From: a virus
Reading direction: 5' to 3' (one strand)
DNA: 22,513 nucleotides
IMG/VR virus record: IMGVR_UViG_3300003690_000083
Location: 1-22,513 of that record
A program made the translations under genes and the position numbers. Below are positions 5,977 to 22,513 of the stretch, one piece after another. The notes under the pieces were generated by a model. It was not told the origin of the DNA and ran no database searches. It saw only the letters and a program-made list of their open reading frames with translations. Position 1 is the stretch's first letter. Every line of letters begins with the position of its first letter.

Positions 5977-8844
5977 ATGTCAGTAAAAAAATATAGATTC
6001 GTATCACCAGGTATATTTGTCCACGAAATAGATAATTCACAGGTACCTGCTTCTCCGGCGGGGATAGGACCAGTTATTATTGGCCGAGCCGAAAAAGGCC
6101 CAGCACTTCGCCCCATTACTGTAAACTCTTTTGAAGAGTTTGTACAGGTATTCGGTACGCCCGCCCCCGGTGGAATCACCAGCGCCCGTGCTGGCGACAT
6201 ATGGAGAAAGGGCAACGACAAGACTGCAGCCACTTATGGCATGTACGCGGCGCAGGCATATCTTAAAAATAGTTCTCCTCTAACATATATCCGTCTCCTC
6301 GGAGCGCAGACCACTGCTGACGGTGGTCCTACCGCCGCATCGCAGGGTGAGGGTGGCTGGAACATGAGCAACGCTTATGGCCTCGTCGTATTTGACTCTG
6401 GGTCTGATAACAACGTTACGGGCGCTCTTGCGGCTATTTTCTATGGTGGCTCAACAGCTACTTTTGAGCTGACAGGTACTTTGCAATCCCCCGGCGGCGT
6501 AGGCTCTGGCCCGAGCGGCTCCACCATGGCGATTCAGGGAGCTGATTTTGTCATTGGCAACGTAAGCGCTAATAATCAGTTTAAGATGGTAATCGGGAAT
6601 TACAAGAGTACGAGCACCCTTACCACAACCTTTAACTTTAATGAGAGCGATTCCCGGTACATTCGTAAAGTATTTAATACAAACCCTCAAATGACAAATA
6701 GCGACCTTATGGGCTCTGGTGAGACGGAGCTTAATTATTTCTTGGGTGAATCCTTCGATCGACACCTGAAGTCCAACATCACAGCTGGCTCCTCGGCCGC
6801 CATTGTTAGACTATACAATACGGGCTCATCGCTCGCCGGCTCTGACTGGAATGGTGGGTTGAACGGCGCCCAGACGCCCTCCATCATTAGCTGTCGTCTA
6901 GATCCTACCGACGATCCCGTTGATCTCTTTACGATCCATGCTCTCGAAGAGCCGGGCGACTGGACCAACCGAAATCTTAAGATATCCATTCAGGATATTA
7001 AGCGTCCTGTAGGCAACGACGACGATTATGGATCATTTACGCTGCTCGTGCGCCAGCTTAGTGACTCTGACAATGTTGTTCAAATAGTCGAGCAGTTTAA
7101 TGGGTGTAATCTCAACCCCGAGTCTAGTGGTTTTATTTCTCGTAGAATTGGTGATAAGTACAGAGAGTGGAACGAGAATGAACGCCGTTATATTGAGCGC
7201 GGAAATTATCCTAGTAACTCTAGTTATATCCGTATCCAAGCGAGCAGTATGGTTGAGGGCGGCATGGCAAATGCATCACTTCTTCCCTTCGGCTTCCGCG
7301 GAATGGTTAAGTATGACGATGAATCGATGTCAACCCGCACTGAGGCCGGCCATTGGGTGACTGGCTCCGATGATCCCGTGCCCAAGGCGGCAGTCGTCGC
7401 CAAGTACCCTGGATCGACTGTTAATACTACATTTATTTATGGCGGGGCGGGGGCTCTTACTCACAGCGTTCTCTACCCTGCACCCGAATTGCGCATCAGC
7501 GCTTCGAGTGGGGATTTGAGTAATGTGAGAGACGCATATTTCGGTTTCCAGACCGCTCAGGGCGCCGGAAGCACCGTTTTCGACCACTCAACAATTGATG
7601 TGTGCCGCCCACTCGGTGGTGAGATTGGTTCTATGTTCTCGGTCGGAGGACAAATGGAACGCTCCATCGATTTCACACTTGATGATGTTTGCGGCAATAC
7701 TAACGGACTTGGCAACGGTGTTTGGATTAGTGGATCTCACAGTTCTGCTAGCAACGCCGCTAGCTTCACGTACCTCAGTGGTGCCGTAAGCGGCGTCCTC
7801 GACGCTGGTTTCGATCAGTTTACAATTCCTCTGTACGGCGGTTTCGATGGAACTGACGTTAAAGAGATGGATCCGTTCAATAGCAGCACACGATTCTTGG
7901 ACTCTAGTGATACCAATCTGACAAGCTATGTACTTAACACTCTTAACCGCTGTGTCGACGCAATTGCCGACCCAGAGGTTGTTGAGATGAACCTAGCAGC
8001 TATTCCGGGTCTCACATTCGACGGTCTTACAACGAAGCTTGTTCGTACCTGCGAAGATCGCGCTGATGCATTGGCGGTTATTGACTTGCCGTATGGTTAC
8101 ACTCCGCGCGAAAGCAGCGTCGTTAGTAATCCGCGTCAGAACGTTGAGAGCACCATTCGATCCAATATTAATGATTTGCGGTCGCGAGGGCTGAATTCTT
8201 CTTACGGCTGTACTTTCTATCCGTGGGTCCGAGCACGAGATACCATTAACGGAACTTTCGTATGGGTTCCCCCGTCTGTTGCCGCGATTGGCACATTCTC
8301 AAGTTCGCAGCGAAAGACACAGGTTTGGTTTGCTCCAGCCGGATTCAATCGTGGGGGTCTCTCTGAAGGCTCCGCTGGTATTCCGATCACGGATGTAGCT
8401 CATGGGCTGAGACGCAAGGATCGTGATGATCTTTACGCCTCAAACATTAACCCAATTGCGAAGTTCCCTGCGGAGGGTATCGTGATCTTCGGACAGAAGA
8501 CACTTCAGACCACCGTCTCGGCACTCGATCGCATCAATGTTCGTCGCCTGATGATTTTCGTGAAGAAGCGTATTTCGCAGATGGCTACTACGATCCTTTT
8601 CGATCCGAACGTCAAGACTACGTGGAAGAGGTTTACCTCACAGGTTGATCCGTTCCTTAGCGAAGTTAAGGCTCAGTTTGGTCTCTCCGATTACAAGCTT
8701 ATCTTGGACGAGACTACTACTACGCCAGAGATGGTTGATAGAAATATTATGTATGCACAAATCTTCTTGAAGCCGACCCGAGCAATTGAATTTATCGCGA
8801 TTGATTTCAATATTACAAGAACAGGGGCGTCTTTCGACGATTAA
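5977..8844 (+). CDS. Tail sheath protein, T4 gp18-like
   Basis: Subunit of the contractile outer tail sheath. ATG start with GAGGAGA (5961-5967) upstream. The N terminus has the classic sheath opening: VSPGIFVHEIDNS (about 9-21), then GIGPVIIGRAEKGPALRP and the NSFEEFVQVFGTP block that other sheaths use for linking to neighbours. The C-terminal third also follows sheath pattern: VWVPPSVAAIGTFSSSQRKT (from about 764), APAGFNRGG, FPAEGIVIFGQKTL, INVRRLMIFVKKRISQ, and a closing FLKPTRAIEFIAIDFNIT strand. At 955 aa it is about 300 residues longer than T4 gp18 (659 aa). The extra sequence is a Gly/Ser-rich middle (roughly 110-620), probably surface domains. Few AGA codons and a good ribosome binding site fit high expression. 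The tube gene follows, as in T4. Confidence 0.95.
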   Translation: MSVKKYRFVSPGIFVHEIDNSQVPASPAGIGPVIIGRAEKGPALRPITVNSFEEFVQVFGTPAPGGITSARAGDIWRKGNDKTAATYGMYAAQAYLKNSSPLTYIRLLGAQTTADGGPTAASQGEGGWNMSNAYGLVVFDSGSDNNVTGALAAIFYGGSTATFELTGTLQSPGGVGSGPSGSTMAIQGADFVIGNVSANNQFKMVIGNYKSTSTLTTTFNFNESDSRYIRKVFNTNPQMTNSDLMGSGETELNYFLGESFDRHLKSNITAGSSAAIVRLYNTGSSLAGSDWNGGLNGAQTPSIISCRLDPTDDPVDLFTIHALEEPGDWTNRNLKISIQDIKRPVGNDDDYGSFTLLVRQLSDSDNVVQIVEQFNGCNLNPESSGFISRRIGDKYREWNENERRYIERGNYPSNSSYIRIQASSMVEGGMANASLLPFGFRGMVKYDDESMSTRTEAGHWVTGSDDPVPKAAVVAKYPGSTVNTTFIYGGAGALTHSVLYPAPELRISASSGDLSNVRDAYFGFQTAQGAGSTVFDHSTIDVCRPLGGEIGSMFSVGGQMERSIDFTLDDVCGNTNGLGNGVWISGSHSSASNAASFTYLSGAVSGVLDAGFDQFTIPLYGGFDGTDVKEMDPFNSSTRFLDSSDTNLTSYVLNTLNRCVDAIADPEVVEMNLAAIPGLTFDGLTTKLVRTCEDRADALAVIDLPYGYTPRESSVVSNPRQNVESTIRSNINDLRSRGLNSSYGCTFYPWVRARDTINGTFVWVPPSVAAIGTFSSSQRKTQVWFAPAGFNRGGLSEGSAGIPITDVAHGLRRKDRDDLYASNINPIAKFPAEGIVIFGQKTLQTTVSALDRINVRRLMIFVKKRISQMATTILFDPNVKTTWKRFTSQVDPFLSEVKAQFGLSDYKLILDETTTTPEMVDRNIMYAQIFLKPTRAIEFIAIDFNITRTGASFDD

Positions 8845-11061: not shown

Positions 11062-14000
11062 ATGTCCAACGGAGATACTCCAGACCCGTCAGCGGCCGCC
11101 CTGCAGGCGATCCTCGCCGCTATCCAGCGCCAATCATCGCTTCTGGAAAAGATCGTCGGCGCCGAAGGACCCCCGGGCCAAGCCGCAGCCCGCCGGTCGC
11201 GTGTGGATCCCACGCAGACCGCCGAGGAACAGGCTAAGCAAGCCCGTACGGCGGTGGAGCGCCTAGGCGAGGAGATCGAGCTAGACCCGAAGCAGTTCGC
11301 AGCACTCCAGCAGAAGATACTAGATTTACAAAACGGAGTCGACGGCGCCTCCGAATCCTTCGCGAACCTTTTTGAAGAAATTGGCGAAGGTGGCGCGAAG
11401 GCGAAGAACACATATTCGCAGCTCTTCAAGATCACTGGCGCGGCCGAGAACATAAACCGAGTAGTCCCCACCTCGGTTGAGGGATTCAAATCGCTCACCG
11501 CAGAATTTACAGCGAACATTAAGAGCGGTAAGATCTTTGTCGATCTGGCCAAGAAGCTCTATGGCACGATGATTAATATAGCGATCGCCGCCGATAAGGC
11601 CGCGGCCAGCTTCGCCCGAACGACCGGAGCTTTTGGCAAAGGAAATCAGGGAGCCAGCGCATACGGACAGGTTCTCAAGAAAACAGAACGTCAGGTAGCA
11701 ATCTTCGGCGCGTCTCATGACGACGTAGGGAATGCCATGGGAGATCTCTATGGGTCTTTCATGAATTTTACGAATCTGTCAGGTAAGCAACAGCAAGCCC
11801 TCACAGCTCAAACTGTGGCTCTCGGTAAGTTGAACGTTTCATCACAACTCACAGCTCAGGTTTTTGATGGCGCCACGAAATCCCTCGGTTTCACAGACGA
11901 TCAGCTGGTAGGCCTTACTGAGACCTTACACGCCACAGCCCAGAGTATCGGAAAGAGCACTTCACAGGTTGTTGCTGACTTTGCGACGGTGTCAAAACAG
12001 CTGGCTTTCTATGGCACCGACGTTGTCGGCGTTTTTCAGGAGCTAGAGAAACAATCTAAGGCTACGGGCCTCACCATGGAGCAGTTGATTGGAATCGCCG
12101 GCGAGGCTTTCGATACCTTTGATGGCGCAGCGGAGAAAGTTGGGCGCCTAAATGCGATATTGGGGGGACCATACCTTAATTCTATTGACATGCTGAATGC
12201 TTCCGAATCTGAACGTATTGAGATGATTAAGGCCTCGATGGACGCGAGTAATCAAATGTTCTCTGATCTGGGGAAGTATGAGCAAAAAGCAATTGCAGCA
12301 GCCCTAGGTATAGATGTTGATACCGCACGCAGAATGTTCGGCGAGCTGTCGGCTGCTGAAGAGATACAAATTAGACAGCAAGAGAAGGTTGCCGAGACTG
12401 CACGCAAGGCCCAAGCAATGTGGGACAAGCTTAAGAAGGCTTTCTATAGTTTGGTGGTGGTTCTTGATCCGTTAGTTAATCTTTTTGGCTATCTCGCCGA
12501 GGCCATCTCGGCCGGCTTTGCGAAGTTGGGCTTCATTCCCAAGCTTTTCATAAATATTGGAGTTCTGGTTGGGGGGCTTTGGGCATCCTTTAAAACATTG
12601 GGGAAGACGCTGAAAAGCGTTGGCAGCAGGTTCACCGGTGCGGGCAACACTATAAAAGCAGCCTTTGGTCCGACCTCGGTCCTTGGAAAGGCCGGCACGA
12701 TGATCACGAATACTGGCGTGTCTATTAAAGCGTTTGGGAAGACGGTTTCAAAACCACTGACCATGGCCTCCGATGGGTTTAAAGCCGTAGGCTCGGCCAT
12801 GAAAAAGGTAGGCTCTTCCGGCAAGACTTTGCTTAAGCCGGTACAGGCGATCGGCAAGGGGTTTAGGTTTCTGGGCTCTGGTTTTAAGCTACTGCTTAAG
12901 CCGGCCACCTTGGTAACAAAGGGATTTAAGGGCCTCTTCGCTCTTTTTAAAGGAGGCCGGGCAGCAGCCACCGGCTTGATGATTTCGCTGCGCGCAGGCA
13001 TGGCGGGCATTAAGGGGGCTTTTGCTGGAAGCGGAATCGGCCTGCCTATCTATTTTATTATTGCTGCGATTGAAACTCTTATTTTTAGTTTAAATAATTT
13101 GTGGGCTATTTTCAAGAACATGTTTAAGTTAATTGTCGGTATTGTTACGTTTGACGGCGCCAAGATATCAGAGGCTTTTCATACCATTATGGAAAATGTA
13201 GCCATGATTTGGTATAAGGGGCTCAATGCCCTGACGTTTGGCCTTTTTGGGCTTATTGTTAAATTGACCGGAGGCAAAGAGAAAATCTTAAAGATATTTA
13301 AGGGCCTCGCGATCGCCATGCTCTTTATGATACCAGGGGTGAATGTAATCATGGGAGTCGTCGCCGCCGTCTGGGCCCTCAAGAAGGTGTGGGCGAAGTA
13401 TAGCGACCAGATTAAGCTTAGTTTAAAAATTGGTTTCTTACCTCTCATAGTGACATTTAAGCTCCTAATGTTTAACCTTAAGATGTTGTGGAAGGGCGTG
13501 AAACTGATCTTTAAAGGCATCGTATTCCAATTTAAGATGCTTTGGAAGGTGACCAAGATGTATTTGTGGATGATGACACTCCCCTTCCAGTTCCTATGGA
13601 AGGTCATCAAGACTATTTTCGGAGGGATTAAAGACGTCTTCAATACGACGGTCTCATCATTCAAGGATGCCTTTGCACCCGTCATAGACGCTTTTAAGGG
13701 AATCGGTGCCTCATTCGGGAAAGCGTGGGCCACCATTCAGTCGGCAATTCAACCCATTAAAGATGCGTTTGCTTCTATCGGCGCAGCATTCGGAAGCATG
13801 TTCGGCGGCGGCGCCGGCGGAGGCGGCGGCTTTTTGGATGCGGTTTTTGGCGGCATAAAGAAGACTTTTGGTTTTATAATGAATGTCGTATTAATCCCCC
13901 TTAAGCTCGCCTTTGGATTTATTGGCCTCGCCATTAAGGTTTTTGCAGCACTGGTTCAAGTTGCTCTAACCCCCGTTGTATGGCTTTTTCAGGGCATCGG

Positions 14001-14658
14001 CCTCGCCATAGAAACCGTGGCCAATATAATTAAATTTGTTTTGTCTCCTATTGAGGCTCTGAAGGCGGCATTCGGTGGCATCGCGTTCGTTATGGGGAAA
14101 GTAGTGGACGGCTTCAGGCTCATATCCAAGGTCCTCCTGGCACCATTTAAAATGATAGCCAAGTTCATGGGCGGCGTTGGCGGATGGTTTGCTCGCAAGT
14201 TTATGAAGGATGAGAAGGAGCCCGAAGCAACTGGCGCGAAGGGAGAGATAGAAAAGGTTGATGATGTTATCATCACCTCTTCCGGAAAGATTATAAAGCC
14301 CAACAAGAAAGATACGATCATCGCTGCATCCCCGGGAAGCCCCCTGCTGCAGCCTCAGGAGCCTGATCCAAAACGGAAAGGCGCCTTATCCTTCGCGAAT
14401 CCCTTAGACGATATTGGTGACAAGATGACGGGTCTGGTCGGAAAACTCTACGCGAAGAGTCCTATGGGAATGCTCCTCAAAGCCGCCGGCGGAATGGCCG
14501 GGCAAGCACTCGGAGGCGCCACGGGCAGTGAACAGGGCGCTGCAAATGTAAAAGTAGATGTTAACGTTAAAATTGGTGAAAAACAATTAACCGACATCAT
14601 TATAGAGGCGCTACAAACGCCGGAGGCTGGAAAGGCAATATCGCCTTTCTTGAATTAG
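11062..14658 (+). CDS. Tail tape measure protein (T4 gp29 role)
   Basis: Sets tail length and occupies the tube lumen until DNA ejection. ATG start with a GGGAA site upstream. At 1198 aa it is the longest protein in this part and has tape-measure composition throughout. The N-terminal 150 residues are Ala/Gln/Glu-rich and helical. Residues about 480-660 repeat Gly-Lys-Phe-rich amphipathic segments (KTLGKTLKSVG, KAFGKTVSKPL, KGFRFLGSGFKLL). Strongly hydrophobic segments follow at about 658-680 (LPIYFIIAAIETLIFSL) and 748-773 (AMLFMIPGVNVIMGVVAAVW), with more between 940 and 985. A glycine-rich hinge (GGGAGGGGG) lies at about 915-923. The C terminus is polar, ending in a VKVDVNVKIGEKQ strand and ISPFLN. 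At about 0.15 nm per residue, a rule of thumb from other phages, it would span up to about 180 nm. No peptidase motif was recognised. Confidence 0.9.
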   Translation: MSNGDTPDPSAAALQAILAAIQRQSSLLEKIVGAEGPPGQAAARRSRVDPTQTAEEQAKQARTAVERLGEEIELDPKQFAALQQKILDLQNGVDGASESFANLFEEIGEGGAKAKNTYSQLFKITGAAENINRVVPTSVEGFKSLTAEFTANIKSGKIFVDLAKKLYGTMINIAIAADKAAASFARTTGAFGKGNQGASAYGQVLKKTERQVAIFGASHDDVGNAMGDLYGSFMNFTNLSGKQQQALTAQTVALGKLNVSSQLTAQVFDGATKSLGFTDDQLVGLTETLHATAQSIGKSTSQVVADFATVSKQLAFYGTDVVGVFQELEKQSKATGLTMEQLIGIAGEAFDTFDGAAEKVGRLNAILGGPYLNSIDMLNASESERIEMIKASMDASNQMFSDLGKYEQKAIAAALGIDVDTARRMFGELSAAEEIQIRQQEKVAETARKAQAMWDKLKKAFYSLVVVLDPLVNLFGYLAEAISAGFAKLGFIPKLFINIGVLVGGLWASFKTLGKTLKSVGSRFTGAGNTIKAAFGPTSVLGKAGTMITNTGVSIKAFGKTVSKPLTMASDGFKAVGSAMKKVGSSGKTLLKPVQAIGKGFRFLGSGFKLLLKPATLVTKGFKGLFALFKGGRAAATGLMISLRAGMAGIKGAFAGSGIGLPIYFIIAAIETLIFSLNNLWAIFKNMFKLIVGIVTFDGAKISEAFHTIMENVAMIWYKGLNALTFGLFGLIVKLTGGKEKILKIFKGLAIAMLFMIPGVNVIMGVVAAVWALKKVWAKYSDQIKLSLKIGFLPLIVTFKLLMFNLKMLWKGVKLIFKGIVFQFKMLWKVTKMYLWMMTLPFQFLWKVIKTIFGGIKDVFNTTVSSFKDAFAPVIDAFKGIGASFGKAWATIQSAIQPIKDAFASIGAAFGSMFGGGAGGGGGFLDAVFGGIKKTFGFIMNVVLIPLKLAFGFIGLAIKVFAALVQVALTPVVWLFQGIGLAIETVANIIKFVLSPIEALKAAFGGIAFVMGKVVDGFRLISKVLLAPFKMIAKFMGGVGGWFARKFMKDEKEPEATGAKGEIEKVDDVIITSSGKIIKPNKKDTIIAASPGSPLLQPQEPDPKRKGALSFANPLDDIGDKMTGLVGKLYAKSPMGMLLKAAGGMAGQALGGATGSEQGAANVKVDVNVKIGEKQLTDIIIEALQTPEAGKAISPFLN

Positions 14659-15541: not shown

Positions 15542-15883
15542 ATGCCAAAAAGATATGATAATCGAAGAATACTTCTTAATAGGGAACCGCTGTATGATAA
15601 TTATTTCGAAGAGCGCCATATTAAATCAATTCGTCAGTATAATTCTGCCACTATGAGATATCCCACCTCCGATGAGCTAAGCCGGATGACCAAGAAAAAA
15701 CATATTTGGACAACTGGCGATCGTTACTATAAGGTAGCAATTGAAAACTACGGCGCAGCCCAGTATTGGTGGGTGATTGCGTTGTTCAACAAAAAGCCTA
15801 CCGAGGCTCACATTCAAAATGGCGAAGTGATATGGATTCCACTTCCCTTAGAAAATATACTGAGACTGTATAATAGGGTTTAA
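15542..15883 (+). CDS. Baseplate wedge protein with LysM-like fold, T4 gp53-like
   Basis: Small baseplate protein, 113 aa. ATG start 3 bases after the previous stop, using GAGAAGG (15524-15530) inside the preceding gene. The C-terminal half carries the LysM-like pattern found in gp53 and related baseplate proteins: WTTGDRYYKVAIENYGAAQY (about 57-76), WWVIALFN, then KPTEAHIQNGEVIWIPLP (about 86-103). In a LysM fold the first block is strand-helix, WWVIA is the second helix and the final block is the closing strand. The N-terminal half is basic and Tyr/Arg-rich (RYDNRRILLN), probably an arm contacting neighbours. T4 gp53 is 196 aa, so this is a short version. Expected role: linking wedge components around the hub. 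It is translationally coupled to the hub gene 2 bases downstream. Confidence 0.75.
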   Translation: MPKRYDNRRILLNREPLYDNYFEERHIKSIRQYNSATMRYPTSDELSRMTKKKHIWTTGDRYYKVAIENYGAAQYWWVIALFNKKPTEAHIQNGEVIWIPLPLENILRLYNRV

Positions 15884-15885
15884 TT

Positions 15886-18800
15886 ATGGCAATTCGTACA
15901 TTTATCTGGGGTAATACTGAGTACTATAAAATTGAGCAACACGTGCCCGTTATGCAATCGGACGCTGCGACTGGAACTTCCGCCATCCCCGCCACCCGAG
16001 ATCGAGCAATGCAGTTCGCCCTGTCGGACCTCCGCGGCCTGCTAGCACCTAACTATAGCTGGAGCGGGAGTGAGATATGGACCTTCGAAGATTTGGAGAT
16101 GATGGAAGAGGATACGGCTGCCATGGCCCTCTCGGTGGGCATCTATAATGTTGTTTATCGTATCCCTAAGGCCGACGCCGAGGCTGCTGCTCAACAAGAC
16201 TATGTTCTTAATAATAATCGGCGGCCCGAGGAACCGGTCGCCCCGCCAACACCGCAAGAACTAGCCGACGCATGCCCGGACCGTGCAGCATTTGCCATTC
16301 ACGGAAATTACTATAAAGTTACGGTTGTTCTTGATGATGTTGATTTAGAACTTGACCCCATTCTGAATGACGCCTACATTGAGGCCGAGTTCGACGCAGC
16401 ACGACAAATTGCTGCACATTTTAACTCCAGTATTCCTGGCAATCCAGTAATGTATCAAAGCGAAAGTCCTTCGGGCACCTACGTTGGGCCGCCCGGCGCC
16501 CCTGGTGTGCGCATTCAGGGCCTGACCCCCATCATGGTGGCGCTCCCCTCGGACCCGAACACTTCTTACCAGTGCCGGTACTCCCAGGCGGTTGTTGAAT
16601 CAACTGGCAAGTTTATTGGATCTTACAGGGCTCCAGTTTCCGGAGTAACAAACGTAAATGTGGTGCCCGGGGACGCCGCTGCGCCAACTGAGGCGCCAGC
16701 TGAGGCGCCGTCCGAGGCGCCCGCCGATGCCGCGTCCCCCTTGGGCCCAGACGACGCCAACCCCGACGCTCCACCTGGTGTAGAAGAGCGCGACGGCAAT
16801 TACGTAATTACGGTTGTTGTTCCTGACGGAGAAGACGCAAGCGATGAAGCTAAAGATCAGCTAGCCCAATATGTTACTGATTCTTCGCGCGGATCCGCAG
16901 CTAATATCAGCATTGATGGAGATTTAACTGAGCTAAGTTCGACTCCCATAGAGGGAAGTGTCGCCGGCAAGAAAATCTTGATCATCGGCGACAGCCAGTG
17001 GGACGGGACCTCCATGGGCAGCGCTGTTAAAGACGGTCTTATTGCGCAGGGAGCGGAGGTGCGCACCTTATATAGGTATGGAAAAGGACTCTGGCTCGGG
17101 GCCGACTATTGGGGACTTACAGTCAACAAGAATACTGGTACGGTTAGTATCTCATCTAGCGGACTGCTTGCTTCTATGCTCAGTAGTTTTAGGCCTGACC
17201 TTGTAATTGTGGGGCTGGGAGGTAATGATACCTATACTTTTCATAATAAAAAAACTGTTTATCAGCAGATTTTAACAAGGTGGATTGAAATATTTCAAGC
17301 TGCTGAAGTAAGTGAGGTCCGCTGGATGGGTCTCTCTTATGCTTCGAAGAGTGGCTATGATCGACTTCGTCAAAGAATCCGAGACCACCAGCAGGAGCTT
17401 CTTTCTGCTTCTCCAGTGACTGGGATACAAACTACGTGGACCGATACGACTCCCTTTACTAGAGATCTTGCATTCGAGCCGCGGGACGCCGGCTACGATG
17501 GTGTCCACTTCACCGGCGAGAGCGCCGGATATCCCACATGGGGACAGCGAATGACCTCCACTTCGGGCCCCCTAGGGGATCTCATGAGTGGCGAATCGGC
17601 CGGCGCCCGCAGAATGCAATATGCTGTGCCTATTGGGAATGTTCAGGTTACCTCTAAGCCTCCCAAAGGGGGAGCGGGCTACGAACCTCCTCCTGCCGAG
17701 GGGGCCCCCGTCGAATCGAGGGCGGAAGAGCCAGGCCCGGTTGGCGAAATCAATATAGAGCCCATTGATTTTCAGTGTATTCTAATGCAGAATATTCGTC
17801 AGCTGGCGAAGCGCCATGAGGAAGAGCCCTACCAATATATTGTGCGTCTTAACACGGAGGGGTCTCCTGGAAACGTAATGTCGATCATTGATCATGGCAA
17901 TATGACAGATGAAGTAAGAGAACTGTTGAGCCTGTGCCCTGAAGTTTATGGAGTGCTTAGCCCTTATCTCAAGATTACACGTGTAGAATATGACGAGAAA
18001 GGTAAGGTTAAAAAAGACAGCCGCGGCATCCCAATAGAAAAGGAGTTACGAATTCCTAATTTTGTATCTGAGAGAGATGTGGAAGATATTTTGGCCGGCG
18101 GAAAAAGTAGAATTTCGGGCGCTGGTATCAAAAAGTTCTCGTGGGAACTAAAAGGTGTGCAGCCTGCCGAGGTAGATAACAACATTACGGCCGTCCTTGA
18201 AATATATTTTCAGTCGGTAGGAGATTTTTTTGGAGGGGCAGCCCAAGCCGGCGGAAACGTACCCAACTTCTTAGATTTAATAATAAATTCACCTGCAGTA
18301 CGACAGGTAAAAAATAAAAGCGGCACAGGTAGTCAATCCCCCAGCAAGAAACCCCTGGGAATCTGTCCCGTCAACAAAGCTGTCTCGGCTGCTTATGATG
18401 GAGCGAATTTTAGAATTAAGGTTTGTGCCGGGTGGGCACCCCCAGAAGATATGGAAAGCATATTTCCTACGATGCCTGCCTCTAAGATTAAGCTTTTGAG
18501 GGAAGCCATTATGGCCTCGCGCGCTTCGTTATTCTTACAGCAAGTTCGACATAATATTCAATTTAATGAAAATGGGTCAATGCTGCTAAGTATCGATTAT
18601 CATGCTGCTTTGAGTGGTCTTCTTCGAGGTTCCACTGCGGATATCTTTGCAGACGGCAAAGCAAAGGACGAAATTAAAAAATTACGAGAAGACAAGAGGA
18701 TCCTTGCCGCGGACAGCGCCGACGAAGATTTGGGCGAGAAGGACAAAGAGGCGCTGGGGGAAAAAACCGACGAGTTGCTTAAAAAGATTGATGAACTCGA

Positions 18801-20349
18801 ACAAGCCGACAAACTTCAAAAATATAGAATGCTTTTAGAGGGACTTTTTCGAAGTGAGAAAGTTATGATCCTAGAGCTGCCGGCCGCAGAAATATATACC
18901 AAAGGAATAGACCAGATGACTCATGAAGAGAGAGTTGAGTTTGCTCGCACACGACAAGCACCTGGTTATATTACCGAACGTGTTAATGCTGGTGTGTTTG
19001 AATCATCTACTCTTGAAGCGATTCCTGAGGAAGGGGGCAAAACAGAAGATGTTGGCAATAGGGCCAACAGGGAGATAGAAAGAGAGAGGAGAGGAGACGC
19101 TAAGAAAATCAAAAAGGGGGATGACGACCTCATAAAGATCCCTTACATGTACATGGGTGACATTGTTGATAATGTACTGAATCAGATTAAAATTAATAAT
19201 GGTGAACAACTGAATTTTAAGTTTTTCCTTTCAGAAGTAGACCTGATTGATCCCCTCGTCGCATTCCAAGTTAAAGGTTTTGCTGACTATGTGGCATGTG
19301 GTAATGTTAAAGATGATCTGGTTTTAGATGCAATGGAAGCAGCAGGGGACGTTACGGTTAAAGGGGAGTCCGGCCTCGTCCTTGTCCTCAATATTGGGGA
19401 CATCCCCATTTCTCTGGATGCCTTCCAGAAGTGGTTTACGGACAAGGTAATTAAGAAGAGTCTTGATAAATATTATTTTTTGAACTTCATCAAAGATGTG
19501 AGCGCGCAACTTATCTCTAATGCTCTCAAGGGTCGCTGCTATGGTAAGAAGTATAAATTCTTCCAGCGCTTTGATGCTCAGCCCGTGAGCTTAGGGGACT
19601 CCAGAAACTTAAAAAAGAAGGGCACAATCAGAGTCACAACATTAGCCAACTATAAGAGAAAGTTAACATGTGAGACTTCGGCTGATAATACGGCATTGGG
19701 AATTGTTTTAATGTCGACCGATTCTAAGCCAAAATCGTTACGAGGAGACTTTGAGCAAGATCTTAAAAATGGAATTTATCATAACTATATTGGTTCTTCT
19801 TGCGGATTGGTTAAAAAGATTAGTTTTAATCGAGAAGACATGCCGTACCTTAGAGAATCTAAGATACAGAAACAGGGCGCCCTTGGCGCAGCTCAGCTAA
19901 GAGAATTATATTCCGTTAATATTGATTTGGTGGGCAATAATCTCTATCGAAATGGTTCTTATGTTTACGTGAGTCCACTCTTGCTTGACACCACCATGGA
20001 AGAGTTGGAATTTCTAGGACTGCATGGCTATTATATGGTCACCTCCGTGAGCTCGGAGATAACTGAAGCTTCATTTACTACTTCCATGAGGGCTCTCCAC
20101 GAAGGTGTTAAATTCCCCGAGAATAGGGGAGCATCTACGGCGAAGGATCCGCCTCCCCCTGCGCCGTCGGCTAACCCAGCTAAAGAAGAGGAAGAAGAGG
20201 AGACTCCTCCAGCAATTAGAAAGACCATTACTACCACCCGCAGCGGGGGATCCCCCACGCTCAATCCCAATATCCGTCAGTCCGGCGGCCTGACGACGAA
20301 ACAAGCTGAAGATCTCGCCAACACGACACCCGCGGAAGGAGATTTTTAA
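15886..20349 (+). CDS. Giant baseplate hub protein with inserted SGNH/GDSL hydrolase domain
   Basis: 1487 aa. ATG 2 bases after the previous stop, weak ribosome binding site (AGGG), so probably coupled. In order: N-terminal domain (1-260); four PxEA/PxDA repeats (267-282); an SGNH hydrolase domain (about 325-585) with IIGDSQW (nucleophile S370), VGLGGNDT (N447) and DGVHFT (D538, H541); a Pro/Glu linker (about 588-622); a long hub body from about 625 with IKKFSWELKGVQPAEVDNN, a charged coiled coil (about 925-985) and a C-terminal GNNLYRNGSYVYVSPLLLD / GLHGYYMVTSVSSEI block (about 1347-1393) typical of gp27-like hub proteins; then a low-complexity tail with PPPPAP and EEEEEE. T4 puts cell-wall digestion in gp5 lysozyme at this place; here an esterase/deacetylase-type domain may take that role. 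Catalytic residues look complete. Substrate unknown. Confidence 0.8.
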   Translation: MAIRTFIWGNTEYYKIEQHVPVMQSDAATGTSAIPATRDRAMQFALSDLRGLLAPNYSWSGSEIWTFEDLEMMEEDTAAMALSVGIYNVVYRIPKADAEAAAQQDYVLNNNRRPEEPVAPPTPQELADACPDRAAFAIHGNYYKVTVVLDDVDLELDPILNDAYIEAEFDAARQIAAHFNSSIPGNPVMYQSESPSGTYVGPPGAPGVRIQGLTPIMVALPSDPNTSYQCRYSQAVVESTGKFIGSYRAPVSGVTNVNVVPGDAAAPTEAPAEAPSEAPADAASPLGPDDANPDAPPGVEERDGNYVITVVVPDGEDASDEAKDQLAQYVTDSSRGSAANISIDGDLTELSSTPIEGSVAGKKILIIGDSQWDGTSMGSAVKDGLIAQGAEVRTLYRYGKGLWLGADYWGLTVNKNTGTVSISSSGLLASMLSSFRPDLVIVGLGGNDTYTFHNKKTVYQQILTRWIEIFQAAEVSEVRWMGLSYASKSGYDRLRQRIRDHQQELLSASPVTGIQTTWTDTTPFTRDLAFEPRDAGYDGVHFTGESAGYPTWGQRMTSTSGPLGDLMSGESAGARRMQYAVPIGNVQVTSKPPKGGAGYEPPPAEGAPVESRAEEPGPVGEINIEPIDFQCILMQNIRQLAKRHEEEPYQYIVRLNTEGSPGNVMSIIDHGNMTDEVRELLSLCPEVYGVLSPYLKITRVEYDEKGKVKKDSRGIPIEKELRIPNFVSERDVEDILAGGKSRISGAGIKKFSWELKGVQPAEVDNNITAVLEIYFQSVGDFFGGAAQAGGNVPNFLDLIINSPAVRQVKNKSGTGSQSPSKKPLGICPVNKAVSAAYDGANFRIKVCAGWAPPEDMESIFPTMPASKIKLLREAIMASRASLFLQQVRHNIQFNENGSMLLSIDYHAALSGLLRGSTADIFADGKAKDEIKKLREDKRILAADSADEDLGEKDKEALGEKTDELLKKIDELEQADKLQKYRMLLEGLFRSEKVMILELPAAEIYTKGIDQMTHEERVEFARTRQAPGYITERVNAGVFESSTLEAIPEEGGKTEDVGNRANREIERERRGDAKKIKKGDDDLIKIPYMYMGDIVDNVLNQIKINNGEQLNFKFFLSEVDLIDPLVAFQVKGFADYVACGNVKDDLVLDAMEAAGDVTVKGESGLVLVLNIGDIPISLDAFQKWFTDKVIKKSLDKYYFLNFIKDVSAQLISNALKGRCYGKKYKFFQRFDAQPVSLGDSRNLKKKGTIRVTTLANYKRKLTCETSADNTALGIVLMSTDSKPKSLRGDFEQDLKNGIYHNYIGSSCGLVKKISFNREDMPYLRESKIQKQGALGAAQLRELYSVNIDLVGNNLYRNGSYVYVSPLLLDTTMEELEFLGLHGYYMVTSVSSEITEASFTTSMRALHEGVKFPENRGASTAKDPPPPAPSANPAKEEEEEETPPAIRKTITTTRSGGSPTLNPNIRQSGGLTTKQAEDLANTTPAEGDF
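16681..16732 (+). repeat. 12-base tandem repeats encoding PxEA linker
   Basis: GAGGCGCC recurs with exact 12-base spacing at 16690, 16702 and 16714, followed by a degenerate fourth unit. It encodes four Pro-x-Glu/Asp-Ala units (hub residues 267-282). The stretch is GC-richer than its surroundings. It forms a flexible, extended linker between the N-terminal domain and the SGNH domain and could vary in copy number by slippage. Confidence 0.8.
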
Positions 20350-20350
20350 T

Positions 20351-21640
20351 ATGAGCGCTATAATTTTCAATCCTAAAGACCTGATAAACCCACAGGGGAA
20401 CAACAAGCTTTCATCGTTGGGGCTTTACTATCAAAGACTCCTCTATAAGGAAGAAATATACCCTGATGACGTTACACCTCCTCTCGATACATGGTATGAT
20501 AAAATCTATTACGGCAGGGTTGATAGACAACAGAATACAATTATACCCAAGGAGTCGCGCCTTAAAGGAATTGCAGGATCCCCAGAAATATATGTTTTGA
20601 ATTTTGTGGCCGATGCTTTTGAAGCTTTTGCAAATCACATGCGGGAGGCGACAATTATTGGAATTTGTGTTAAGCGCGGCAACCCTACTCTTACAAATCC
20701 GGTGCCTAAAAAAGGTTATGAGCCTCTTATGAATCGGTATAATGAGTTTCTGGGCGACAGTTTTGCAGCATATGTAAATTCTATTCCCGTTAATACTCCT
20801 AAAATTGTTGATCTGGCGTCGTTTGCCACTCAGTTTGTTAGTTTCCTCAAAAAAATTGCACAGATGATCCCCGTAACTTTATGTAATTACACTCTCACGA
20901 ATCATTTTAATACCTTCAACGGCGCGCTTTCGGTTTCTATTGCGACCGCGAAGCCCGGCGACGACGCGCCCAAATATTCTGATTTTATTAGTGACCCTAA
21001 TTTTGATTTTTATGTAGGAGCAGCCAAAAAGTTTGGCTTTACTGTCAACAAGAATATGCCCTGGATTTTGACCGCAGATCTTTTCACAGACGCGGCAGTA
21101 AAATATATTTCCCAGTATAAAGACGAGAATGGAGACCCCATTACAGATCAAACCTTTTTTGATGTTTTATATACTAAAGCATGTTACAAAGACATTCAGC
21201 GCTTGCGGTTATTTATTAAAAATAGTTATGAGACATTTGTAATATATCATCCTTACACCGAGAAGTTTGAGTTTTCGCCAAGATGCAATAAGGTAAGTTT
21301 AAAATCTCGCGGCCGCCAGTTACTGCCACCAGATATTAATACTATACTTACTGATAAATATATGATAGATTTATACCTGCACTTGCGCAGCCTCGAAAGC
21401 GGCACACCCGTACAAATTACCACAAAGCTAAAGACTGAATTAGCCAACATATATAGGCTTAAGCCCGATTCCTCCCTAACGGAGCTAGAAAATGCTATAG
21501 CCTATATCAACATGATCTACCGTGACTACATTTACGATGTTACCTACCCCTCGATAAATGAATTTATAAAATTACTTGACAATAACGCCATGGTTGGTAC
21601 AATATCTACAGCAGCCTCGATTGCAACCGAGCTATATTAA
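20351..21640 (+). CDS. Conserved-looking phage structural protein of unknown function
   Basis: 429 aa. ATG start 1 base after the hub stop, with GGAAGGAG (20335-20342) inside the hub gene 8 bases upstream, so it is co-translated with the hub. Soluble mixed alpha/beta protein rich in Tyr, Phe, Asn and Lys. Notable blocks: LDTWYDKIYYGRVDRQQNTI (about 46-65), a mid-protein DPNFDFYVGAAKKFGFTVNK (about 215-234), PWILTADL, then a helical FFDVLYTKACYKDIQRLRLF, and a long helical C-terminal third. The pattern matches an uncharacterised protein found near tail genes in environmental myoviruses as I remember it, so a minor virion or baseplate role is likely. There is no membrane segment, signal peptide or known catalytic motif. 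The polymerase gene starts 9 bases later; a link to replication cannot be excluded. Confidence 0.7.
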   Translation: MSAIIFNPKDLINPQGNNKLSSLGLYYQRLLYKEEIYPDDVTPPLDTWYDKIYYGRVDRQQNTIIPKESRLKGIAGSPEIYVLNFVADAFEAFANHMREATIIGICVKRGNPTLTNPVPKKGYEPLMNRYNEFLGDSFAAYVNSIPVNTPKIVDLASFATQFVSFLKKIAQMIPVTLCNYTLTNHFNTFNGALSVSIATAKPGDDAPKYSDFISDPNFDFYVGAAKKFGFTVNKNMPWILTADLFTDAAVKYISQYKDENGDPITDQTFFDVLYTKACYKDIQRLRLFIKNSYETFVIYHPYTEKFEFSPRCNKVSLKSRGRQLLPPDINTILTDKYMIDLYLHLRSLESGTPVQITTKLKTELANIYRLKPDSSLTELENAIAYINMIYRDYIYDVTYPSINEFIKLLDNNAMVGTISTAASIATELY

Positions 21641-21649
21641 GGAGGGCGC

Positions 21650-22513
21650 ATGCTATTTCAGGTGTTGGATTCTAAATCTGACTGTGTTGGATATTTCGCC
21701 GACAATACTATAACTTCCACTTCCCATCTTCCGATGGAAGGGTCTACGTGGGAGTACTCAGAACATTTAGGCGGCAAGAATTATGAGATAGGGCGTATTT
21801 ATAGCCATGGAGCGTCCCTTACAGACGTTTGTCCAGAAGATATGAAACAGGACTGGGAGGAGATTAAAAAGACTCTTAAATCTTGTCTTAAGGCCTTTAA
21901 GACAGCTCACCTTTCTTTGAACGAGAACTGTTTTTACGACGTATTGCCGGAGTATTTTTTGTTTGAGTACATGAACGCGAAAAATAAAATTACACGACAC
22001 GTTTTAGAGACCTACCCCCGCCCTAAAAACTATCAGCTTACCTACAATCTCATAGAAATGCTTAGTACGATTCGTGGGCAGCTTTTAAATATTGATATAG
22101 GTCCCATTAAGCATCTTTTAAGCTCGGTACGTGGAAAGAACTTTCATCGGACGTTACAAACTGTCAAACACACTTGCGACTACAATCCATGGGGGACTAT
22201 AACGGGACGCCTCTCGACGACTCCCTGTAGTTTCCCCATTCTTACTATGAATAAGGAGTTCCGCGCGTGTATTAGGCCGAAGAACGACTGGTTGTTGGAG
22301 CTTGATTTTAATGCGGCAGAGTTGCGCACCCTCTTGGCTCTTGCTGGGGTAGAACAACCAAAGAATGATATCCATGACTGGAATGTAAAGAACATTTTTG
22401 GTGGTAAGCTGACCCGCGAAGAGGCTAAAGTAAAGACCTTCGCGTGGTTATATTCTACGAAGAAAAACAAGGCCTTAGAACGGCTATATAACAAGAATTT
22501 GGTACGAAATAAG
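21650..22513 (+). CDS. Family A DNA polymerase, apparently lacking 3'-5' exonuclease domain (partial)
   Basis: 288 codons without a stop; the gene runs off the window. ATG with AGGAGGG (21640-21646) that overlaps the preceding stop. Polymerase family A motifs appear in order: TGRLSTT (T185-R187-L188; E. coli Pol I has TGRLSS), a SFPILTMNKEFRACIRP segment (the QNIP region), motif A LDFNAAELR with catalytic D219 and E224, DIH (240-242), and motif B R256-x3-K260-x3-F264-x3-Y268. The F at 264 is the residue that in Pol I and Taq favours discrimination against dideoxynucleotides. The O helix ends YS rather than YG. Motif C lies beyond the window. Only about 184 residues precede TGRL, too few for exonuclease plus thumb, and no DxE exonuclease motif is seen. 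Expected role: phage DNA replication. Unusual: it lies in the late structural operon. Confidence 0.85.
   Translation, partial: MLFQVLDSKSDCVGYFADNTITSTSHLPMEGSTWEYSEHLGGKNYEIGRIYSHGASLTDVCPEDMKQDWEEIKKTLKSCLKAFKTAHLSLNENCFYDVLPEYFLFEYMNAKNKITRHVLETYPRPKNYQLTYNLIEMLSTIRGQLLNIDIGPIKHLLSSVRGKNFHRTLQTVKHTCDYNPWGTITGRLSTTPCSFPILTMNKEFRACIRPKNDWLLELDFNAAELRTLLALAGVEQPKNDIHDWNVKNIFGGKLTREEAKVKTFAWLYSTKKNKALERLYNKNLVRNK

Follow-up and report, generated by a model that had tools for sequence, protein, structure and literature searches.

The window, meaning the whole stretch of 22,513 nucleotides analysed here (positions 1 to 22,513 of IMG/VR record IMGVR_UViG_3300003690_000083), carries tail and baseplate genes in the order tape measure protein, a 289-residue protein, gp53-like protein and hub protein, so that the hub gene lies downstream of the tape measure gene and inside the baseplate cluster. 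A contractile sheath gene is also present. The hub reading frame encodes an N-terminal arm containing an SGNH/GDSL hydrolase domain, followed by a gp27-like body (Table 1). An artefactual gene fusion was ruled out, because the joining of arm, SGNH domain and hub recurs on four independent records. The tail sheath protein is unusually long (955 residues, window 5977-8844), and only residues 654-953, approximately, match the common sheath family phrog_23.

Table 1. Features of the hub gene and its surroundings in the window (residue numbers are those of the hub protein).
Feature	Position	Strand	Evidence
Tape measure protein, encoded 5' of the hub gene	11062..14658	+	phrog_1535, phrog_58
gp53-like baseplate wedge protein, directly 5' of the hub gene, synteny conserved	15542..15883	+	phrog_7145, E 1.1e-8
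Hub protein CDS (arm, SGNH domain and gp27-like body), 1487 aa	15886..20349	+	Open frame; homologues in at least 58 viral loci
Arm repeat unit R1, aa 1-105, beta-beta-alpha-beta-beta	15886..16200	+	Predicted secondary structure; profile match to R3, 0/150 permutations as high
Arm repeat unit R2, aa 131-262	16276..16671	+	Predicted secondary structure, low confidence; profile match to R3, 1/150 permutations as high
Ala/Pro/Glu-rich linker, aa 263-298	16672..16779	+	Sequence; pLDDT under 50
Repeat unit R3, first part before the SGNH domain, aa 296-357	16771..16956	+	Structure prediction and profile comparison
SGNH/GDSL hydrolase domain, aa 358-569 (fold compared over 358-570)	16957..17592	+	Pfam; Foldseek and VIA-align matches to SGNH structures
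Putative catalytic Ser S370, block I GDS (aa 368-370)	16993..16995	+	Sequence; invariant in homologues
Putative oxyanion-hole Asn N447, block III GGND (aa 445-448)	17224..17226	+	Sequence; invariant in homologues
Putative block V DGVH (aa 538-541; D538, H541)	17497..17508	+	Sequence and invariance; loop pLDDT under 50
Repeat unit R3, last part after the SGNH domain, aa 570-597	17593..17676	+	Permuting this part alone abolishes the R1-R3 score (0/150)
Pro/Gly/Glu-rich linker, aa 598-620	17677..17745	+	Sequence; pLDDT about 30
gp27-like hub body, aa 685-1411, with large internal helical/coiled insert	17938..20118	+	AlphaFold2 pLDDT 77, pTM 0.77; VIA-align Z 11-13.6 to phage, T6SS and eCIS hubs
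Conserved 429-aa protein, 3' of the hub gene	20351..21640	+	tblastn; syntenic in 7/8 relatives examined

The hub body was modelled with AlphaFold2 (residues 606-1425, alignment of 48 sequences) and compared with known structures using VIA-align, which returned Z scores of 13.5 for eCIS hubs, 12.9 for pyocin R2, 12.6 for P1, 11.1-11.3 for T4 gp27 (1k28/2z6b), 10.7 for VgrG and 9.9 for 80alpha Tal. Residues 80-806 of the model, which take in the pair of tail-tube-like domains typical of gp27, matched T4 gp27, Mu gp44, pyocin R2, 80alpha Tal and VgrG with Z 9-13.6; the best eCIS hub match by Foldseek had an E value of 6.7e-4. A PHROG search with the hub protein gave no family. The gp27-like reading of the hub, already proposed in the preliminary description together with an SGNH domain in the same polypeptide, is supported by these fold matches, by the tape measure and gp53-like genes upstream, and by the sheath gene.

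The hub body family was found at 58 or more loci in IMG/VR, a lower bound given by a pattern-seeded scan. A tblastn search of 50,697 phage records gave no match for the SGNH domain or the hub body, nor for the complete hub protein. Judged by the hub gene (hub body, window 17746-20160), this group of contractile phages has no relative in culture. A scan of genome contigs for the hub body was also without a match and thus offered no hint of a host; a marine origin of these viruses is a guess. The SGNH domain was found in the window and in three further records, two of them nearly identical (L009 and L010) and the other designated L011. A scan of all other hubs for the GDS..GxND..DxxH motif found none, and comparison of the SGNH arm with all other arm groups by hhalign gave nothing convincing. 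A search for an SGNH domain elsewhere in the relatives whose hubs are without one produced a single very weak match (G004, E 0.0037), which was not believed.

Blocks I (GDS), III (GxND) and V (DxxH) of the SGNH superfamily are all found in the arm, in the right order and with the Ser, Asn, Asp and His residues; S370, N447 and D538/H541 stand in the 1487-residue frame where they had been reported. Candidates for the oxyanion-hole Gly of block II are G399 and G401 in YGKG, which are invariant, as judged from the sequence. With loose spacing, the ordered motif arose in 19 of 20,000 composition-preserving shuffles of the protein, and a chance origin was rejected. The Pfam profiles provide evidence for the domain that is independent of the GDS/GGND/DGVH motif. 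With the full-length protein, PF13472 (23.5 bits, E 9e-5), PF04311/DUF459 (1.6e-4) and PF00657 (2.6e-4) all scored under their curated cut-offs; with residues 306-590 in isolation, DUF459 (27.7 bits, cut-off 27.2) and PF00657 (24.9, cut-off 23.6) rose over them, and PF13472 (27.2 bits) stayed under its cut-off of 32.9. Three divergent homologues are likewise matched by SGNH profiles. The four homologues, whose arms are 56-62% identical to that of the window, all have S370, N447, D538 and H541, residues that are unchanged across three divergent lineages. Searches of PDB sequences using phmmer and hmmsearch gave marginal matches for the SGNH domain and none for the hub.

The arm was modelled with AlphaFold2 from residues 1-620 and a four-sequence alignment, which gave a mean pLDDT of 54.6, with 55-87 over much of the SGNH core. 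In this low-confidence model the order of strands and helices is that of a flavodoxin-like alpha/beta/alpha core, and the best structural matches (Foldseek and VIA-align) were SGNH enzymes, with Z 11.8-13.5 over 163-190 residues. These included 1z8h, a C. jejuni GDSL esterase, PatB, CE2 esterases, TesA and the acetylxylan esterase Axe2, and among the 50 VIA-align matches listed essentially all were SGNH or related GDSL enzymes. The SGNH assignment, previously made from motifs, thus holds at the level of predicted fold. A Foldseek comparison with viral models brought up numerous fold matches to SGNH tail proteins of phages and to lipases; superposition over the arm as a whole was poor. The geometry of the Ser-Asp-His triad stays putative, since the loop bearing D538 and H541 (residues 526-550) has a pLDDT under 50.

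Substitution rates were estimated between L009 and L011. For the SGNH domain, dN was 0.12 and dS approximately 3, giving an omega of approximately 0.04, where dS is near saturation (and undefined for this domain in pairs with the window); omega was 0.06 for the hub body, and the first 262 residues evolve faster (0.28). The SGNH domain is under purifying selection and as constrained as the hub body. An esterase or deacetylase role is a reasonable inference from the invariant triad and this selection. The first 262 residues of the window protein (15886-16671) are 63% identical to L011 and 45% to L009, yet the SGNH domain of L011 is nearest to that of L009 (82%). Because the arm N-terminus and the SGNH domain have different nearest relatives, recombination within the arm of the hub gene is suggested.

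Predicted secondary structure divides the arm into three related units of the beta-beta-alpha-beta(-beta) type. When the SGNH domain was excised from R3, the profile of the rejoined unit aligned with R1 with a score of 22.6, which was equalled in 0/150 column permutations and 0/122 windows of the hub body. The corresponding scores were 19.5 against R2 (1/150 permutations as high) and 23.1 against the first arm unit of a 165-kb relative (0/150 permutations as high). The R1-R3 alignment spans the point of excision, and permuting the part after the SGNH domain removes the excess, which makes an insertion of the domain within the third repeat unit the most likely arrangement; with thin profiles of four rows, we hold it with good but incomplete confidence. 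The domain had been described as flanked by Pro/Glu-rich linkers. The second linker indeed follows at about residues 598-620, but the first (about residues 263-298) does not border the domain directly, which sits inside the third unit (residues 296-357 and 570-597).

The arm preceding the hub body ranged from 14 to 894 residues across the family, and many arm groups were mutually unrelated by BLAST. Besides the SGNH domain, the other arms (hub N-termini L009-L066) had no Pfam or PHROG match, the PHROG search covering 45 arms. At least four hubs carry only 14-21 residues ahead of the body, and four with practically no arm directly follow the gp53-like gene. The arm is therefore an optional, highly variable slot that is dispensable for the hub itself. 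In a tree of hub bodies, the SGNH-bearing hubs formed a single clade (100/100 support) nested in an 11-member clade (100/100), whose remaining members lack an arm, carry a short one or have that of the 165-kb contig. Because of this nesting among hubs with no arm or another arm, one acquisition of the SGNH domain in this lineage is the simplest reading.

Wall enzymes were recognised on gp5-like proteins of two relatives whose hubs are without the SGNH domain. In the 165-kb relative, a baseplate-cluster protein (L080:10260-11423, minus strand) that adjoins gp25- and gp6-like genes has a weak VanY match (E 1.5e-4). In a 148-kb relative, the C-terminal part of a protein (L083:787-2040, minus strand) is a GH24 phage lysozyme (E 5.5e-19). 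The two proteins have their first 170 or so residues in common (32% identity, E 3e-20), and their genes lie beyond the region equivalent to the window. Between these relatives the wall enzyme that the gp5-like spike protein carries appears to be swapped (VanY-type peptidase or GH24 lysozyme). From these two relatives we infer that the wall cutter of the group sits on the spike, the SGNH-positive records being too short to span the spike gene.

We think it probable that the protein is the central hub of a contractile-tailed phage, in which an optional arm with an SGNH domain in its third unit would hydrolyse surface esters and might thereby aid the enzyme on the spike. Of this reading, the data show the reading frame, the fold matches, the conservation, the restriction to one clade, the position inside a repeat unit and the fact that the arm is optional. 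The hub would be of the T4 gp27/Tal type, presumably a trimer, with the arm projecting from it in the virion. Once the baseplate has docked, as many as three copies of the SGNH domain would hydrolyse esters, most likely O-acetyl, on surface polysaccharide or peptidoglycan lying under the hub. Removal of these esters may open the way, or it may lift a block on the wall enzyme of the gp5-like spike, a separate protein. A more ambitious version, which is possible though doubtful, would make the hub N-terminus of a large group of uncultured contractile phages a dedicated tool slot built on a repeated beta-beta-alpha-beta scaffold, with an SGNH deacetylase plugged into a repeat in one lineage and a tip working in two steps there, O-acetyl removal before the spike cuts the wall.

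SGNH folds also include acyltransferases (PatB), lipases and thioesterases (TesA) and inactive members, and other uses of the domain have to be weighed. It might be a lipase or lysophospholipase that attacks the host membrane where the hub makes contact and aids membrane penetration rather than deacetylating a glycan. One of the top structural matches is TesA (Z 12.3-13.3), a lysophospholipase/thioesterase, but carbohydrate esterases and PatB-type enzymes match equally well and a substrate cannot be read from similarity of fold; we consider this use unlikely. A receptor-binding module for an acetylated surface glycan, with hydrolysis weak, absent or serving reversible binding, would suit an arm that is highly variable, as expected for parts engaged in host recognition, and the segments of which appear mosaic among relatives. 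Against it stand a triad invariant in all copies and strong purifying selection on the SGNH domain, and its probability is low. That the domain is a catalytically dead remnant with a structural use only would be in keeping with full-length Pfam scores under the curated cut-offs, but is scarcely credible for a domain with an omega of approximately 0.04 that keeps its Ser, Asn, Asp and His unchanged over three divergent lineages.

A stronger reading of the preliminary description makes the SGNH domain the main wall-opening enzyme, in place of a tail lysozyme. No other wall enzyme was recognised among the proteins scanned in the 22.5-kb window, as this reading would have it. However, deacetylation alone does not cut peptidoglycan, and the relatives bear VanY or GH24 lysozyme domains on a gp5-like protein encoded outside the equivalent stretch, which leaves it very improbable. 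Because contractile-tailed relatives carry a wall enzyme on this separate protein, the hub SGNH domain is probably an accessory remover of esters, as in our preferred reading, rather than the wall cutter.

A hub and an SGNH domain are already known from one polypeptide in the Tal proteins of the S. aureus siphophages phi11 (gp44) and 80alpha (gp59), where a gp27-like hub is followed by a C-terminal SGNH/GDSL domain of putative activity (PMC7048315, PMC4876445). Those proteins belong to non-contractile tails and a Gram-positive host, whereas the present hub is that of a contractile phage, and in them a coiled-coil rod stands between the hub and the C-terminal SGNH domain, which here is N-terminal and lies inside a repeat. 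Comparison of the hub and SGNH parts with a single Tal sequence by hhalign gave no significant match, so that the fold classes alone are in common; the Pfam families TT1_Tal and Prophage_tail match phi11 gp44 and not the present hub protein. The gp27-gp5 device of T4 has the gp27-like hub fold, and relatives have an OB-like gp5-type protein with a GH24 lysozyme, but in T4 the enzyme is in gp5 and not in the hub, and T4 gp27 (approximately 370 residues) is without an arm or an SGNH domain. SGNH domains of virion tailspikes or fibres are reported to deacetylate surface polysaccharides in Pectobacterium phages PP99 and Possum and in Acinetobacter phages such as Aristophanes. The PP99 and Possum tailspikes were among the Foldseek matches to viral models; their enzymes are on peripheral spikes or fibres, in contrast to the central hub here. 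The CE2 esterases, PatB, Axe2 and TesA resemble the domain in fold and motif order and as its best structural matches, but are cellular enzymes, and their sequence identity to it in the structural alignments is 10-22%.

In the open-licence literature, no contractile phage with an SGNH domain in its hub was found. The view that the hub-borne enzyme is an uncommon solution holds within the hub family (4 of at least 58 loci), but the type of fusion had been described for phi11 and 80alpha. New are the N-terminal position of the SGNH domain, its nesting in a repeat and its occurrence in an uncultured group of contractile phages. If our reading is correct, hub-borne SGNH enzymes extend from Gram-positive siphophages to contractile phages, and the variable arm is a place where enzymes may be acquired while the hub stays intact. 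Should the spike enzyme act after a deacetylase, this would explain how a phage overcomes O-acetylation that blocks lysozyme.

In the 165-kb relative (G001), in which ARAGORN found no tRNA gene, positions 105358-123664 hold an apparent cluster of nucleotide-sugar epimerases and glycosyltransferases, judged by eye from the translations. In the window, a DNA polymerase gene (phrog_17, E 5.1e-10) starts directly after the baseplate genes (21650-22513); in L003 and L004 the polymerase frame is complete at 395 residues, which is shorter than the usual DNA polymerase I.
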